This document shows positions 22,589 to 45,919 of a stretch of 47,984 nucleotides of DNA, piece by piece. Under the pieces are notes generated by a model. The model searched no databases and was not told the DNA's origin. It saw only the letters and a program-made list of their open reading frames with translations. The stretch's first letter is position 1. The number at the start of each line of letters is the position of its first letter. Source of the DNA: a virus. The stretch lies in IMG/VR virus record IMGVR_UViG_3300030329_005062, positions 1-47,984 of that record; one strand, 5' to 3'. The position numbers were made by a program, and so were the translations under genes.

Positions 22589-23263
22589 ATGAAACAATTT
22601 ATATTAATTTTAACTCTAATTTTAGGGATAGGAATGAATACCTATTCACAAACACAATTAACTACAGCTGTAGATTTTACACATACAGATTTGGATGGTA
22701 ACACACACAATTTATTTTCTATTTTAAATAGTGGAAAATGGGTAGCTATTGATTTTCACGCTTATTGGTGTGGAACATGTATGACATTAGCTGCAGATTT
22801 TGGACAATCCTTCCAAGACTATGGATGTAATACAAGTGATGTGTTTTTTATGACCATAGAACTTGAAGGCACAACCAATCAATGCCAAGATTTTGACAAT
22901 AACTACGGTGGTGGACACGACGTACCTTATTTGTGTAACGCCAGTAGCATACATAATGATTATGGAATACAAGCATTTCCTACAATCATTTTAATTAATC
23001 CTAACGGAATTATAGTAGAACAAGACATATGGCCTTTCGACACTAGTATAATGGCTTCTACATTATCCAGTCATGGATTAAACCCATCAACGTGTAGTGG
23101 TACAGTTTCTATTGGTGAAATAGAGGATGTGTCATACAATTTTAATAATAATAACAATAGAATGTACGACTTATTAGGGAGAGAATACGAAGATTATAAA
23201 TCGATTCCTACTGGGTCAATGTATATTCGTAATAACACTAAATACATAAAAACAAAACAATGA
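22589..23263 (+). CDS. Secreted thioredoxin-fold protein with type IX sorting-like tail
   Basis: 224 residues. A signal peptide ends near NTYSQ. The thioredoxin/TlpA-like domain has the redox site CGTC (C61, C64) in HAYWCGTCM and the cis-Pro segment AFPTIILINPNG. After an Asn-run linker the C-terminus reads MYDLLGREY, IPTGSMYIRN, KYIKT, strongly resembling the short C-terminal domains that route Bacteroidota proteins through the type IX system. The same ending occurs in the protein at 38646. Redox role in the periplasm or at the cell surface is inferred. It overlaps the next gene by four bases. Confidence 0.85.
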   Translation: MKQFILILTLILGIGMNTYSQTQLTTAVDFTHTDLDGNTHNLFSILNSGKWVAIDFHAYWCGTCMTLAADFGQSFQDYGCNTSDVFFMTIELEGTTNQCQDFDNNYGGGHDVPYLCNASSIHNDYGIQAFPTIILINPNGIIVEQDIWPFDTSIMASTLSSHGLNPSTCSGTVSIGEIEDVSYNFNNNNNRMYDLLGREYEDYKSIPTGSMYIRNNTKYIKTKQ

Positions 23264-23862
23264 AAAAAATTTTAGCATTATTAGTAATCGGATTAGTAGG
23301 ATATTTTGGTTACACATATTTAAACACAGAAAATAAAACCGAAACTATCCAAGTAGAGGATGCACCTGTAAAGGTTTCGATTATGTACATTAATTCTACT
23401 GACCAACCTCAAACAATTAGAGCAACTTGGGGTATTAATAAACCTGATACTACGGTTATTGCTCCTGGAGATTCAGTTAAGATTCAATCTAATTGTAGTC
23501 CTAATGGTAGAGTATTACCTACAGAATGTTCAGAATTCCACTGTCAATTACTACCACCAGCTTCTTTAAAACAACCGAACCCATCGACAGGAAACTTTTG
23601 GTTAAGTTACCAATTGGAACCAGGTGGCACTGTAAAGTGTATTCGTGACGGTTTATGGTATAGTAATCAAGATAATGAAGGAGCAGGACCTATGGACAAT
23701 TATATCTGGTCAGAATATACAAATTGGAAATATGAATTAGTGTGGAGTAATAATCCACATAACCAACAAGGAAATGAGATAGTTAATACATTAGAAATAA
23801 AAACAGTTGAGTGTACATCCGTTGCGGACCCTTCGAGCCCATCAAAATTTTCATGTAACTAG
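23260..23862 (+). CDS. Exported Cys-rich protein, unknown
   Basis: 200 residues. An N-terminal hydrophobic segment (MKKILALLVIGLVGYFGYTYL) is a membrane anchor or signal. The exterior part has eight or so Cys, a strand-rich segment (VKVSIMYINSTDQPQTI) and ends in SPSKFSCN. It is translationally coupled (ATGA) to the thioredoxin-fold gene upstream, so that enzyme may help form its disulfides. No family recognised. Confidence 0.75.
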   Translation: MKKILALLVIGLVGYFGYTYLNTENKTETIQVEDAPVKVSIMYINSTDQPQTIRATWGINKPDTTVIAPGDSVKIQSNCSPNGRVLPTECSEFHCQLLPPASLKQPNPSTGNFWLSYQLEPGGTVKCIRDGLWYSNQDNEGAGPMDNYIWSEYTNWKYELVWSNNPHNQQGNEIVNTLEIKTVECTSVADPSSPSKFSCN

Positions 23863-23887: not shown

Positions 23888-24841
23888 ATGAAAAAACTAT
23901 TAACCTTTCTTCTTATCGGAACAATGTTCGGATGTGGAGTAATTAATTTAGATAAAACAGCTGAAAAAGATTGTACAACTAAAAAAGAATGTTGTAAAAA
24001 AGATAAAACTGCGGAGGATATAAAAACTTCCCAAACTTTTAAACCAAAATTCGATGTAGATGGGTCAACTTGTGGTGCATCACCAACCGTTAACGCTAAT
24101 TCAGTACAATTTGGTACGGCTGATTCAGACGGTGCAGGTAGAGTAGTTTCACAACAAGGATATAAAAGTATTACACAAATTAGAGCTAAAGCAGATTTTA
24201 GCCACTTAACTAGTAATTTTGTTGTTTCTACTTTTTATATGGTAAACAACCCTACTAACCCATCATTACAACCTAAAGGTGGTGATTATTGTGACGCTGG
24301 AGGTAATAACCCACAATGGAACTGTCAAGAAGTAGACTTCTTTGAAACAAATAAAAATGTAGTATTCCAACATACTATGCATATTGGAGATGGAAGTAGT
24401 TCCGCACCTCAAAACTATCAAATAAGTTATTCTACGACGCAAGATACGTGTTTTACAGACTTAACACCAAAACAAGGATTAGTATCATGGGGTGGCATTA
24501 AATTAAGTGACCCAGTAGATATTATTATTGATTTGGATTCTAATGGTATGACGGTTACTTTTTCACAAGACACTATTTCTACAGTAGTTTATAAAATGGG
24601 ACCAGGATTTGATGGTTCTACTTTTGATGATGACCAAATTAAACGTTGGGAACAAGGAAGACAACAAGGATATTGGTTAGTTTTAAGTCAATGGCAAGAT
24701 TTAAAAGGTCCATGGGCTCCAGGCTCTAAACAAAATTTATATAATTGGTCTTGTTCATTTGGTAACTTATGTGGAGCTTCTGAAGGAAACTACTTTAAAG
24801 TTTATGACATTGAAGTGGACGCAGAATCTATAATAAAATAA
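23888..24841 (+). CDS. Lipoprotein with glycoside-hydrolase clan-B-like jelly roll
   Basis: 317 residues. A lipobox (MFGC, Cys about 16) indicates envelope anchoring. The body looks like a concanavalin-type beta sandwich; E148-V-D150-F-F-E153 matches the E-[LIV]-D-x-x-E catalytic signature of clan GH-B (GH16/GH7), with the preceding Cys and following Asn and His (HTMHIGDG) also reminiscent of that clan. It might cleave or bind a host glycan. Assignment rests on one motif and fold impression, so an inactive lectin-like protein remains possible. Confidence 0.7.
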   Translation: MKKLLTFLLIGTMFGCGVINLDKTAEKDCTTKKECCKKDKTAEDIKTSQTFKPKFDVDGSTCGASPTVNANSVQFGTADSDGAGRVVSQQGYKSITQIRAKADFSHLTSNFVVSTFYMVNNPTNPSLQPKGGDYCDAGGNNPQWNCQEVDFFETNKNVVFQHTMHIGDGSSSAPQNYQISYSTTQDTCFTDLTPKQGLVSWGGIKLSDPVDIIIDLDSNGMTVTFSQDTISTVVYKMGPGFDGSTFDDDQIKRWEQGRQQGYWLVLSQWQDLKGPWAPGSKQNLYNWSCSFGNLCGASEGNYFKVYDIEVDAESIIK

Positions 24842-30196: not shown

Positions 30197-30820
30197 CTAA
30201 TAGGTAAAATGTTTATATAAAAATTTTCTATCAAAACCCTCTTTTTCCAACTTATTATATAACTGTTTTCTTTGGGTAGTACTATAGTCATTGACAAAAA
30301 TAGCATCTACTCGCCCCTTTTCAGAAAATTTTCGTGAAATTGCATCCATAAGACGTTTACTATCAGAAACATTTTTTAAACTAAATAAATAATATTTTTC
30401 ATTATTTTGAACTATAAGTTTGTTATTTAGTGTGAACACCTGTTTAAAGTCAGCACGAGGAATATAATTAGATAATAAAAAATCAAAAGTAATTCTTTTT
30501 TTGACTTGATGGTCATAGATTTTTTCTTCAACCCAATAAGGTTTAATATCTAAAAAAGAATAATCCCCATCTATGTTCACCGTAATGTTTCTTCCTAAAT
30601 TATCTTTTTTAAATACAGGTTTATTTGTTTCTCCATTAACCAATAAACCTAGTTCCATAACACATTCTTTCTTTTTTAAGAACTTACAAGTAAAATAAGG
30701 CTTTTTTTGTTTCAATAATTTATTATACTTAGCATTAATTAGACGGAAGTTGTTTAAGGTGTGAATCACCTTTTTCTTCTTTCCATTAACAAAAAGCAGT
30801 ATAAAATATTTTTTTTTCAT
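30197..30820 (-). CDS. Unknown minus-strand protein sharing a CATATG start junction with dnaJ
   Basis: 207 residues from the ATG at 30820; an upstream ATG at 30838 lies inside dnaJ and is less likely. The protein is basic and strand-rich at the N-terminus ([20 protein letters not shown]). There is no recognised domain. Its start codon abuts the dnaJ start with no bases between, so its promoter must lie inside dnaJ; an AATATTTG box occurs there on the minus strand 13 bases upstream. Confidence 0.75.
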
Positions 30821-31822
30821 ATGAATGATTATTACCAAATATTAGGTGTAGACCCAGGCGCAAGTCAAGAGGAAATAAAAAAAACTTATCGTAAATTATC
30901 TAAAGAACATCATCCCGATAGAGGTGGTGATGAAACTAAATTTAAACAAATAAGTGAAGCCTATGGAACTGTGGGTGACGCTAAAAAAAGAGCTGAATAC
31001 GATAATAAAAGAAATAATCCTTTTAGTAATATGGGAGGAAATCCCTTTGAATCACATGATGACCTATTCAACCAGTTTTTTAATAGAGCTAATCAACCTA
31101 GAACTAAAAAAGGAAAAGACCTATCACTAAAAATTGTTATTCCTTTAGAAGATTTATTTCACAAAAAAAAGAAAAAAATTAAGTATGAAAGACCCACCCC
31201 TTGTGTTAGTTGTGATGGTAAAGGTGGTGAAAGAATTACATGTGGTACATGCCAAGGGAAGGGACATATAGAGAGAGTTTCAGGTAATGCTTTTTTTAGG
31301 AATATACAAAGAGTACCATGTCATGTTTGTAATAGTAGAGGATTTCTTTTAGTACATGCTTGTGGTACCTGTAGTGGAAGTGGTACATTAGGTGAACAAA
31401 TTATATTTGAACTAGAAGTACCAGAAGATTTGGAAAATGGCCAAACAATGAGTTTTCCAGGATATGGTGAAAAAATAATTGATGGTGCACCTGGTTCTCT
31501 ATTAGTCAATGTAATTTTTGGCACTCATAGTGATTTTGAGTTAGAAGGGAAAAATCTTATACACCACATTAGTTTAAAACCATTAGATTTATTACTGGGT
31601 AAAAAAGTTAAAGTACCACATTTTGATGGTGAATTATTGTTAGATGTAGAAGGTTGTACACCTGTTGATAAAGTATTTAGATTAAGAGGAAAGGGTATGA
31701 AAAAATATAGAGACTATAGTGGGGATTTATTGATTAAGATAAAGGTTGAAGTGCCAAGTAGTATAACTAAACAACACAAAATAGAATTACAACGATTAAG
31801 GTCTGAAATAGAGCCTAATTAA
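30821..31822 (+). CDS. dnaJ: DnaJ-type chaperone
   Basis: 333 residues from ATG 30821 (the frame extends upstream but the J domain begins here). J domain 1-65 with H31-P-D33. A Gly/Phe-poor linker ([16 protein letters not shown]) follows, then four zinc-finger repeats [24 protein letters not shown] and CGTCSGSG, then the substrate-binding C-terminal domains. A full type I DnaJ in a phage probably recruits host DnaK for virion assembly or replication-complex remodelling. No dnaK or grpE is in the window. Confidence 0.93.
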
Positions 31823-32779: not shown

Positions 32780-32887
32780 ATGGAATTAACAGCAAAAATA
32801 GTAATAATAGCATATGTAGTCGCATGTACAAGTGTGGTTATTTCAGTAATGATAGAATACATTAGGGAAAAAAATAAAAAATTATGA
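32780..32887 (+). CDS. 35-residue membrane microprotein
   Basis: ATG one base after the preceding stop; the stop overlaps the next ATG as ATGA. A single hydrophobic helix (IVIIAYVVACTSVVISVMI) is followed by a basic end (REKNKKL). The tight coupling on both sides supports it as a real gene. Confidence 0.6.
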   Translation: MELTAKIVIIAYVVACTSVVISVMIEYIREKNKKL

Positions 32888-34050
32888 ATGAGCAATTAAA
32901 TTTATTTCAAACCAAAGAAGAATTTAACTTTGATGAGATGAAACAAAAACTCATTGATAATCTTGATATGCTTAAAGAAATGTCTGTACAAGAACAAACC
33001 CTATATAAGAAGTGGCAAGAAATGAATAAAAAGGGTAAAATGTCCAAAATCAAGAAAAAACTATACACATATAAACAAAATCTTTGGGAACCTACAGACA
33101 TATATAATTTAGAAAAAACTATAAGTGAAATAGAGGATTTAGAACCTTATGTAGAATTAGCAACACCAGGAAAAGGGGTTACCGAGTGGGTAAATTATAG
33201 AAAACTTATTCATACAATGGAATGGGTTGCAAATCCAGGAAGAAATATGAAATTCTGGGTAAAGGATAGGAAAACACAGAAAGTCCTTGGATTGATTTGT
33301 TTAGGGTCTGATGTTACTAGTATTAAAGTAAGAGATGCCTACATCGGGTGGGACAAAACTAATAAGTTTGACCAACATAAATTAAATAACACCGCTATTG
33401 CTACCACAATTTGTTCTACTCAACCAGGAGGATATAATATGTTAATGGGTAAATTAGTAGCAGCCCTGACTACATGTAAAACTATTAGAGACGCTTGGGA
33501 GGAAAAGTATGGGGATAAATTAATTGCGGTAGGTACCACATCTTTATACGGTATAAATTCTATGTATAATGGAATGCCACATTTTAAAACTATGGGTGAA
33601 ACCACAGGCCAAGTGAGATTAAAACCAGATGATGAGGTCTACCTACCTTGGAACACTTGGTTAAAAAATACACATCCAGAAGAACACCACAAAGCTATTA
33701 ATGCTACAGGACCTAAACAAAATATATTAAATAAAGTTTTTAAACACTGTGGAATTAAAGCTTCTACCTACGACCACGGATTTAAAAGAGGGGTGTATCT
33801 TGCTATGATGTATGATAATGGTTGTGAATTTTTGAGGGGTGAAATAGAAGAAAGTGATTTAAATATGAAACAAAAATTTATTGATGACGTAGATTATACT
33901 TGTAAGTGGTGGAAAAAGAAAGCTATTCGTAGATATAAGAATATGAATGAACAAAAAAGAATTAAACCAGAATCATTATTTTATTGGGATGTGATTGACT
34001 TATCGTGGGAAGAAACACAAAACAATTATATTAAAGAGGTGGGTAGATGA
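32884..34050 (+). CDS. DUF4338 / DruA-like protein
   Basis: 388 residues. The segments NPGRNMKFWVKD, VLGLICLGSDV, RDAYIGWDK, KLNNTAIATTI, GKLVAALTTC, WEEKYGDKL and TSLYGINSMYN reproduce the order of the DUF4338 (DruA) family: a strand with LG, the IGW motif, an Asn-rich helix and the YG...TSLYG block. DruA is a component of the Druantia defence system, yet homologues occur in phages. Whether this copy attacks DNA, blocks host Druantia or excludes other phages cannot be judged from sequence. It is coupled to a membrane microprotein upstream. Confidence 0.75.
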   Translation: MNEQLNLFQTKEEFNFDEMKQKLIDNLDMLKEMSVQEQTLYKKWQEMNKKGKMSKIKKKLYTYKQNLWEPTDIYNLEKTISEIEDLEPYVELATPGKGVTEWVNYRKLIHTMEWVANPGRNMKFWVKDRKTQKVLGLICLGSDVTSIKVRDAYIGWDKTNKFDQHKLNNTAIATTICSTQPGGYNMLMGKLVAALTTCKTIRDAWEEKYGDKLIAVGTTSLYGINSMYNGMPHFKTMGETTGQVRLKPDDEVYLPWNTWLKNTHPEEHHKAINATGPKQNILNKVFKHCGIKASTYDHGFKRGVYLAMMYDNGCEFLRGEIEESDLNMKQKFIDDVDYTCKWWKKKAIRRYKNMNEQKRIKPESLFYWDVIDLSWEETQNNYIKEVGR

Positions 34051-38645: not shown

Positions 38646-39185
38646 ATGAAAAAATTATTATTAGTTGTATTAGTACTGCTTGGACTAAACCAAACACAAG
38701 CACAGCAGGTAGCACCTTATTTCTGCTGTGATTCAATAACATATTGGATAGACCAAAGTCAAGGGTTTAACATAGGACTTGATACATCAAATATAGTACA
38801 CAATCCAGATTCTATGACAGTATATTGGGGAGTATGTACTGGATTTGCAACAGCTGGCATGTGTTATACAGGACAAGGTATGTATGATTATTTTCCTCAG
38901 ATTACAACATCAGATACAATTAAAGTAGCGTATGATGTGTATATTTACGAAAATGGTTCAGTAGAAGTATGTAGTATAGAAGATTGGTTAGTATTTGACC
39001 AAAACTCTTTTTCATGGGTATTACTCAATATGTTACCAACAGGTCTGCCTGGATTTGTAGTAGAAGAAGATGGTGTAAGATGGTGGAATAATAAAATATA
39101 TGATTTACAAGGTAGAGAATTAAACGAAATACCTACAGGGGTCATGTACATTAGAAATAAAAAACTTTATATTAAAACACAATAA
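38646..39185 (+). CDS. Secreted protein with type IX sorting-like tail
   Basis: 179 residues. A signal peptide ends near TQAQ. The middle domain is Cys- and Tyr-rich, unassigned. The C-terminal 32 residues (KIYDLQGREL, EIPTGVMYIRN, KLYIKTQ) are nearly the same as the tail of the thioredoxin-fold protein at 22589, in the style of Bacteroidota sorting domains. It would be exported to the host surface or medium if the host has a type IX system. The cargo's function is unknown. Confidence 0.82.
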   Translation: MKKLLLVVLVLLGLNQTQAQQVAPYFCCDSITYWIDQSQGFNIGLDTSNIVHNPDSMTVYWGVCTGFATAGMCYTGQGMYDYFPQITTSDTIKVAYDVYIYENGSVEVCSIEDWLVFDQNSFSWVLLNMLPTGLPGFVVEEDGVRWWNNKIYDLQGRELNEIPTGVMYIRNKKLYIKTQ

Positions 39186-39326: not shown

Positions 39327-39755
39327 ATGAAAGGAAAAATTAATACTGATAATGGAACTATGGTAGTAGAGTTCTACGAAAAAGATGCACCAAAAACAGT
39401 TGGTAATTTTGTTAAATTAGCAAAAGAAGGTTTTTATAATGGATTAAAATTCCATAGAGTAATTCCAGGTTTTGTGGTACAAGGTGGATGTCCCAATGGT
39501 AATGGTATGGGTGGTCCAGGGTATAAAATTAATTGTGAATTAGAAGGTGAAAATCAATATCATGACGAGGGTGTTTTATCTATGGCACACGCTGGTAGAA
39601 ATACAGGAGGTTCACAATTTTTTATCTGCCATAATAGACCAGGTACACAACATTTAGATGGTAATCACACATGCTTTGGAAAAGTAGTTGAAGGAAAAGA
39701 CATTATACACAAAATCCAACAAGGAGACACTTTTAATATTGACATCATTGAGTAA
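39327..39755 (+). CDS. Cyclophilin-type peptidyl-prolyl isomerase
   Basis: 142 residues. All cyclophilin landmarks are present: VGNFVKLAKEGFYNGLKFHRVIPGFVVQGG split over the active Arg and Phe, GGPGYKI, GVLSMAHAG, NTGGSQFFI and HLDGNHTCFGKVVEG. It catalyses prolyl isomerisation, probably helping fold virion or lysis proteins. No signal peptide, so cytoplasmic. Its stop overlaps the next ATG by one base. Confidence 0.95.
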   Translation: MKGKINTDNGTMVVEFYEKDAPKTVGNFVKLAKEGFYNGLKFHRVIPGFVVQGGCPNGNGMGGPGYKINCELEGENQYHDEGVLSMAHAGRNTGGSQFFICHNRPGTQHLDGNHTCFGKVVEGKDIIHKIQQGDTFNIDIIE

Positions 39756-40651
39756 TGAACCCCCAATTATCCACTTATGTAGGTAAAACACCACTAATCC
39801 CAATTAGAATAGGGAGGTATACTGTATGGGGAAAAGCAGAGTTTATGAATCCTTCTGGTAGTGTTAAAGACCGAATGGCTACCTATATTATAAATGACGC
39901 TGAAGAAAGAGGATTAATAAAAAAAGGAGACACTCTGTGTGAAGCTACTTCAGGTAATTCAGGAATTGCTTTCGCGATGTTAGCAGCTGAAAGGGGATAT
40001 AAAATGGTTATCATTATGCCAGAAAATATGTCTCAAGAAAGAAAAGATATGTTTCAAAGATATGGAGCAGAACTTATAGAAGTGGATGAAGGAGACTTTG
40101 ACGGGGCTATTCTAAGAAGAGACATTCTATCAAACACCAACGGATGGTTTAACTGTAATCAATTTCACAACCCTTTAAATATAAAAGCACACTATAATAC
40201 TACTGGTCCAGAAATATGGAATGAGTACAAAACTATAAACGGAGAAACATCTAAACCAGACGCTCTAGTTCTTGGTACTGGTACTGGTGGTAGTTTAATG
40301 GGTACGGGTAAATTTTTAAAAGAGTATTGGGACGGAATTAAAATAGTTGCAGTAGAACCAGCTGAGTCACCAGTAATGTCTGGAGGAGACCCAGGACTAC
40401 ACGGAATACAAGGAATTGGTGATGGTAGTAAATTTATGGTTAATTTGGATTTCTTAGATGGAATCAGAACAATATCAACCCCGTGTGCCCAAGCTGTATC
40501 AAAACATTTAGCTTTAAGATATGGATTGTTTGTCGGTATTAGTGCAGGTGCAAATGTTATGGCCGCATTTCAGTGGTTAAGAGATAATGACAAAACAAAT
40601 GCTATAACCATTCTTTGTGATAGAGGTGAAAGATACCTAAGTTGTTCATGA
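39755..40651 (+). CDS. Cysteine synthase (PLP-dependent, CysK/CysM type)
   Basis: 298 residues. The PLP lysine lies in NPSGSVKDRMA (K about 38), the substrate loop is EATSGNSGIA, the phosphate-binding loop is GTGTGGSLMGTG, and the C-terminal GISAGAN block is complete. It forms cysteine from O-acetylserine (or a related acceptor) and sulfide. Full length and intact, so an active auxiliary metabolic gene is likely; cysteine may feed Fe-S or Cys-rich proteins made in infection. Confidence 0.92.
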   Translation: MNPQLSTYVGKTPLIPIRIGRYTVWGKAEFMNPSGSVKDRMATYIINDAEERGLIKKGDTLCEATSGNSGIAFAMLAAERGYKMVIIMPENMSQERKDMFQRYGAELIEVDEGDFDGAILRRDILSNTNGWFNCNQFHNPLNIKAHYNTTGPEIWNEYKTINGETSKPDALVLGTGTGGSLMGTGKFLKEYWDGIKIVAVEPAESPVMSGGDPGLHGIQGIGDGSKFMVNLDFLDGIRTISTPCAQAVSKHLALRYGLFVGISAGANVMAAFQWLRDNDKTNAITILCDRGERYLSCS

Positions 40652-44561: not shown

Positions 44562-44635
44562 GCACTCGTAGCTCAGCTGGATAGAGCATTAGCCTTCTAA
44601 GCTAACGGTCATAGGTTCGAATCCTATCGAGTGTA
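44562..44635 (+). tRNA. tRNA-Arg (anticodon TCT)
   Basis: Complete cloverleaf: 7-bp acceptor GCACTCG/CGAGTGT (first pair G-U), D stem GCTC/GAGC, anticodon stem TTAGC/GCTAA with loop CTTCTAA (anticodon TCT), and T arm ATAGG-TTCGAAT-CCTAT. No encoded CCA. It reads AGA, the dominant Arg codon in the phage genes here, so it likely supplements the host pool. Confidence 0.95.
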
Positions 44636-44672
44636 CTAGGATAAAGAATTATTAATTAAAAAATAAAAAATT

Positions 44673-45825: not shown

Positions 45826-45899
45826 GCGGGTGTAGCTTAATAAGAAAAGCGACGTACATTCCAGTACGTAGATGGTGGCTCACACTCCACCCACCCGCT
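45826..45899 (+). tRNA. tRNA-Gly(TCC)-like gene with abnormal loops
   Basis: 7-bp acceptor GCGGGTG/CACCCGC and U discriminator fit glycine tRNA. D stem GCTT/AAGC closes loop AATAAGAA, with one G in place of the GG pair. The anticodon stem ACGTA/TACGT closes an 8-base loop CATTCCAG, one more than normal, in which T-TCC-A can be read. The T stem GGTGG/CCACC closes an 8-base loop CTCACACT that lacks the T54 and A58 of the usual TTCRANY. It may be a real odd tRNA, a decaying one, or a tRNA mimic. Confidence 0.65.
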
Positions 45900-45919
45900 C
45901 TAATACTTAAAAAATAATT

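Follow-up and report, generated by a model that had tools for sequence, protein, structure and literature searches.

A short candidate type IX sorting tail on a phage-encoded thioredoxin and on exported proteins of marine phages and bacteria

The DNA analyzed here (the window) is the 47,984-base IMG/VR record of a marine virus that probably infects Bacteroidota-type bacteria; it encodes a predicted secreted thioredoxin that ends in a short C-terminal tail. Judging from its sequence and by analogy with known cargo, this tail is probably a sorting signal of the type IX secretion system (T9SS) through which the thioredoxin would be exported. As far as the open-access literature shows, three things are new: a class of short tails that the curated models fail to recognize, the occurrence of this class across marine phages and in one family of bacteria, and the pairing of redox and Cys-rich proteins that carry it.

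Two tailed proteins and their surroundings in the window

The earlier note on this DNA had described a signal peptide, a CGTC thioredoxin fold, an Asn linker and a sorting-like tail at 22589-23263. This layout is indeed present, and the coordinates are exact. The features of the gene and of its downstream neighbor are as follows:

22589..23263, + strand: secreted thioredoxin with a short T9SS-like tail, 224 aa (sequence, domain matches, relatives, tail HMM)
22589..22648, + strand: signal peptide, residues 1-20, cleavage between S and Q (Q-rule; read from sequence)
22664..23023, + strand: thioredoxin/AhpC-TSA-like domain, about residues 26-145 (Pfam; solved relatives including ResA 4nmu)
22769..22780, + strand: active-site motif CGTC, residues 61-64 (read from sequence)
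23099..23260, + strand: linker with Asn run and short sorting-like tail, residues 171-224; core 190-224, from 23156
23260..23862, + strand: next gene, 200 aa, N-terminal hydrophobic segment, Cys-rich, without the tail (sequence)

The signal peptide (residues 1-20) is followed by Gln, which is the Q-rule of Bacteroidota. The Asn run comprises residues 186-190, and the terminal 35 residues are MYDLLGREYEDYKSIPTGSMYIRNNTKYIKTKQ. The protein belongs to the Thioredoxin superfamily, with a CxxC motif (CGTC) and matches over cut-off to Pfam AhpC-TSA (1.2e-9) and Thioredoxin (5.8e-8), as well as an NCBIfam ResA-like match (3.3e-11). The curated ResA, TrxA and DsbE subfamily scores are not reached, the best being NF002854 with 43 bits versus a cut-off of 170. 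An AlphaFold model of the thioredoxin had a pLDDT of 42, too low for structural reading. The gene has 88% identity in three relatives, one of which is a 73.9-kb virus contig syntenic with most of the window. Between the window and this contig, dN/dS is 0.05 for the body of the thioredoxin and 0.16 for the tail; these low values indicate that both are maintained.

The stop codon of the thioredoxin gene overlaps the start of the next gene (ATGA), which is 98% conserved in the 73.9-kb relative and is possibly a co-transcribed partner. At 23888-24841 there is a lipoprotein-like exported protein with an MFGC lipobox, also 98% conserved in the relative; its CQEVDFFETN resembles the GH16 catalytic motif ExDxxE, and it has no Pfam match.

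A profile of natural tails identified a second tailed protein in the window, absent from the earlier note:

38646..39185, + strand: exported protein of 179 aa, the second with a tail; its body is a Cys-rich beta sandwich of the "CDS" family (natural-tail profile)
39087..39182, + strand: short tail of the second protein, residues 148-179, predicted strand pair 166-177 (tail HMM, model)

In the structural model of this protein (pLDDT 69.5), the body is rich in beta strands, the linker is disordered and the tail forms two paired strands; with modest confidence, the predicted strand pair fits the expectation for motifs D and E of the canonical T9SS sorting domain. Foldseek gave weak FN3/Ig-like matches, none at E <= 0.001. 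A chromosomal relative is 57% identical, and its gene adjoins thyA. The body was matched in 3 of 148 sampled genomes of the order, two of them from the tail-bearing family described below (that of genome G001). Just downstream, at 39755-40651, lies a cysteine synthase homolog, 61% identical to its counterpart in a 635-kb uncultured phage.

The possibility that the window is a mis-binned bacterial contig was rejected. It is an IMG/VR virus record that encodes a phage-type primase, SbcCD, a sigma factor, an endolysin and members of phage families whose function is unknown, and it shares synteny with the 73.9-kb virus contig. No terminase or capsid genes were recognized among the proteins scanned. 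Other features of the window include a DruA (Druantia) domain protein at 32884-34050 (PF14236, E 9.7e-27) and, at 30761-31822, a DnaJ-like protein (phrog_14336, E 8e-73) with relatives in Prevotella phages and in uncultured megaphages. A tRNA-like gene at 45826-45900, with a two-base anticodon that is undetermined (ARAGORN tRNA-???), lies near a tRNA-Arg(tct) at 44562-44636.

Carriers of the tail among bacteria and phages

The earlier note had proposed comparing the tail with the host's own proteins, and this comparison bore out: the tail occurs on chromosomal exported proteins of the probable host family. Matches to the natural-tail profile were found in 35/52 genomes of the family of G001, in 24/119 of its order and in 6/198 of the phylum. 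In bacteria, the exported proteins that carry it have M43 peptidase, BNR-like and other bodies. Among the 35 tail-bearing family genomes, the sortase PorU was found in 33 and the translocon component SprA in 29, with at least one of the two in all 35. PorU is also present in 19 of 22 other tail-bearing genomes tested, the three without it being small assemblies of 0.9-1.3 Mb. Since nearly all genomes of the family have a T9SS, this co-occurrence speaks for compatibility more than for correlation. Two of the bacterial genomes have 46 and 68 TIGR04183 matches, respectively.

According to gene names read from the sequences, the chromosomal gene for the tailed CDS protein lies next to thyA, folA and clpPX, and that for the tailed thioredoxin next to a lumazine-synthase-like gene. 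The chromosomal thioredoxin of locus L170, which has a related short tail, is 45% identical to that of the window and 71% identical to that of phage locus L196. The same bacterial family also has a secreted thioredoxin with a canonical PF18962 tail (L175). The simplest account of these sequence relationships is gene exchange between the phages and the family of G001, and the shared genes make this flavobacterial-type family the probable host. A second bacterial short-tail variant, ending like (I/V)DILGRET...LFYIY.DGTVEKKY(I), was seen at L162:7155-7754, L165:6805-7452 and L170; its genes adjoin genes with the first variant.

On the phage side, a scan of virus contigs for the second protein yielded 51 loci on contigs of up to 298 kb, and the tail search brought further virus loci and two bacterial loci. 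Tails were found on 46 of 2799 distinct viral ORFs (from the 51 loci and the earlier virus loci) and on 0 of 13,995 shuffled ORFs, and the matches end at most one residue from the C terminus in 46 of 49 matched stretches. The first alignment used for the tail search had two artificial rows; all later alignments, HMMs and counts are of natural sequences only. Three kinds of body carry the tail in these phages: the CDS Cys-rich protein, thioredoxin, and Omp28-like proteins with CxxC (PF11551). The CDS family most often has six Cys residues in the mature form, and some diverged forms lack the family motif. Neither tailed window protein had a relative among the named phage records.

A CxxC protein and a CDS protein recur together on the same virus contig. 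The CxxC protein is a thioredoxin in the window and its relatives and at L196, where the two genes are adjacent. It is Omp28 at L221 and L225, again adjacent to the CDS protein, and on contigs 3300017727_004934 and 3300017750_004387, where both are on the same contig.

These distributions bear on two other explanations of the tail. The tailed proteins might be virion components for decoration or adhesion, the tail being an assembly or attachment hairpin that resembles a T9SS tail; the beta sandwich of the second protein, with its weak FN3/Ig-like matches, is of a fold common on phage surfaces. However, [ASTNG]Q, as in the Q-rule (described in PMC10653852), follows the signal peptide in 41/41 tailed phage ORFs with a visible signal-peptide-like N terminus, which misfits cytoplasmic virion assembly, and the same tail is found on non-phage proteins encoded by chromosomes. 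We consider a virion role highly improbable. The tail could also be the leftover of a captured host gene, irrelevant to a protein that acts in the periplasm as a ResA/TlpA-like thioredoxin. In favor of this, ResA-type periplasmic proteins are the nearest to the thioredoxin body, and there are host relatives that carry tails of this kind (L170). Against it, purifying selection acts on the tail (dN/dS about 0.16), which is kept on several body types and is carried by every complete CDS-body ORF recognized in the virus loci. Moreover, the second window protein has kept its tail while its linker diverged. A functionless remnant is thus quite unlikely, and a sorting signal remains the preferred reading.

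Relation of the short tail to the canonical type A domain

An HMM of bacterial short tails gives the thioredoxin tail 57.9 bits (E 4e-18), where the best of 3758 scored shuffles reaches 11.2, and scores the second protein's tail at 45.7 bits, with 2.4 for the next-best ORF of the window; this HMM consists of bacterial sequences alone, but these were found with a profile containing phage tails, and the two sets are not fully independent, even though the sequences from bacteria are independent in themselves. An HMM of 40 canonical bacterial TIGR04183 tails also ranks the thioredoxin tail first and the second protein second among the 147 window ORF C termini. Its scores are low, 8.8 bits for the thioredoxin (reached by 5 of about 2000 shuffles) and 5.2 bits for the second protein (reached by 13 of about 2000).

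The earlier note had also called for a search against TIGR04183/TIGR04131-type profiles, and, read literally, that search fails: TIGR04183, PF18962 and NCBIfam gave no sorting-domain match in the window thioredoxin or in its tail, and none in the 16 virus records scanned. These profiles miss the phage tail because the YPNP motif and the first-strand half of the domain are absent. The tail, of only about 35 residues, has neither a YPNP-type motif B nor the full seven-strand Ig-like fold. Motifs D and E, with their G-x-Y strand and their basic end, are at the extreme C terminus, PTGSMYIRNNTKYIKTKQ being terminal, although phage and canonical tails, when aligned directly, match over only 12 columns, around YDLLGR.

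The link to the canonical domain runs through the bacterial short tails. In profile comparisons, phage tails match bacterial short tails with an E value of 2e-20, and bacterial short tails match canonical TIGR04183 tails with 1.4e-7 over 26 columns; the direct match of phage to canonical tails is weaker, 9.6e-6 over 12 columns. The short-tail profile aligns to the C-terminal half, the last part, of the canonical tail. TIGR04183 touches 4 of 22 bacterial short tails (best E 0.0053) and is the only NCBIfam model with more than one such match. The same short tail, ERIYDLSGRLVTTPLQKGIYIRNGKKY, is also present at residues 647-681 of a solved endo-arabinanase, PDB 4kca_A (E 1.4e-6), and the tail therefore reaches past these marine genomes.

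HBP35 of Porphyromonas gingivalis is a T9SS-exported thioredoxin, and its last 22 residues, which hold motifs D and E, are enough for GFP to be displayed on the surface in a PorT-dependent manner (PMC3120885, PMC2907840, PMC10202324). Because so short a segment suffices there, the short tail is plausible as an export signal. By its sequence and by this analogy, it is best read as a minimal type-A-derived signal, though it fails the formal membership test for the canonical domain. The claim of the earlier note that the thioredoxin is T9SS cargo thus stands in part. In its favor, the protein has a predicted Sec signal peptide, and its tail is common to unrelated bodies in T9SS-positive bacteria, being found on chromosomal exported proteins of a PorU/SprA family with many canonical TIGR04183 tails and aligning to the C-terminal half of the canonical domain; the match to a curated sorting model did not materialize.

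Proposed export route, role and known systems

We propose that the thioredoxin-fold oxidoreductase gene, related to genes of the host clade, was probably taken from there. The protein would be made in the infected cell and exported by Sec, as its Q-rule signal peptide suggests, after which the host T9SS would carry it across the outer membrane by recognizing the minimal type-A-derived tail, which corresponds roughly to motifs D and E. Analogy and the common layout lend good support to this proposed route of Sec export followed by T9SS passage. The thioredoxin would end on the cell surface or in the medium, anchoring and release both being conjectural, and the tailed Cys-rich beta-sandwich protein of the same phage would be exported alongside it.

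A redox role is suggested by the CxxC motif and by the recurrence of a tailed Cys-rich protein as its partner; the likely activity is thiol-disulfide chemistry, with exported proteins of the phage or surface proteins of the host as substrates. The simplest target would be the disulfides of the Cys-rich tailed partner, formed or reshuffled by the thioredoxin; we put this forward tentatively, as a guess, given that the two co-occur in a few phages. The main rival on this point has the export step in common with our proposal and differs in the target, which would be host surface receptors or competitors, for example in superinfection exclusion. The T9SS does deliver cargo to the surface, and the authors of the Cryophage study proposed inter-strain competition or superinfection roles for T9SS cargo (PMC7468147). 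However, the recurrent pairing of Cys-rich and CxxC proteins fits the handling of partner disulfides at least equally, and we hold a host-surface target to be rather unlikely.

It is quite conceivable, if short of an even chance, that marine phages infecting one family of flavobacterial type use the host T9SS to run a surface program of their own. Such a program would consist of a Cys-rich beta-sandwich protein and a CxxC partner (thioredoxin or Omp28-like), both with a minimal tail of about 35 residues that would form a distinct, unrecognized T9SS signal class common to phage and host. The results suggest that T9SS models now undercount cargo, missing the short tail class in bacteria and phages. 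They also provide many phage examples of candidate cargo for a host secretion system, together with a probable host clade. With these, direct tests can address which proteins phages send to the surface of infected Bacteroidota.

The earlier note had seen in this thioredoxin a new way to use the export machine of the host. This was too strong, as HBP35, phage-encoded T9SS cargo in Cryophage (PMC7468147) and T9SS domains in crAss-like phages (PMC6949934) precede it. HBP35 has a signal peptide, thioredoxin activity and a C-terminal type A sorting domain, all with predicted counterparts in the window protein. In contrast to the phage-borne window protein with its tail of about 35 residues, HBP35 is chromosomal, has a full-length sorting domain of about 80 residues and binds heme. 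ResA/TlpA-type oxidoreductases have in common with the window protein the fold, the CxxC motif and export (predicted for the window protein), but they are membrane-anchored or periplasmic and lack a C-terminal sorting tail. The Por_Secre_tail domain (PF18962/TIGR04183) aligns with the window tail in its C-terminal half (YDLLGR ... G.Y...) and occurs in these same genomes on exported proteins of the same kinds, whereas the window tail is without YPNP and the first-strand half and falls below every curated cut-off. Cryophage and crAss-like phages likewise have genes for proteins with T9SS sorting tails, for which use of the host system was proposed. Their cargo carries recognized sorting domains, on an endoglucanase, a GH39 protein, a PA14 protein and BACON repeats; the phage group of the window differs in its short tail missed by the models, its redox and Cys-rich cargo, and its many marine phages.
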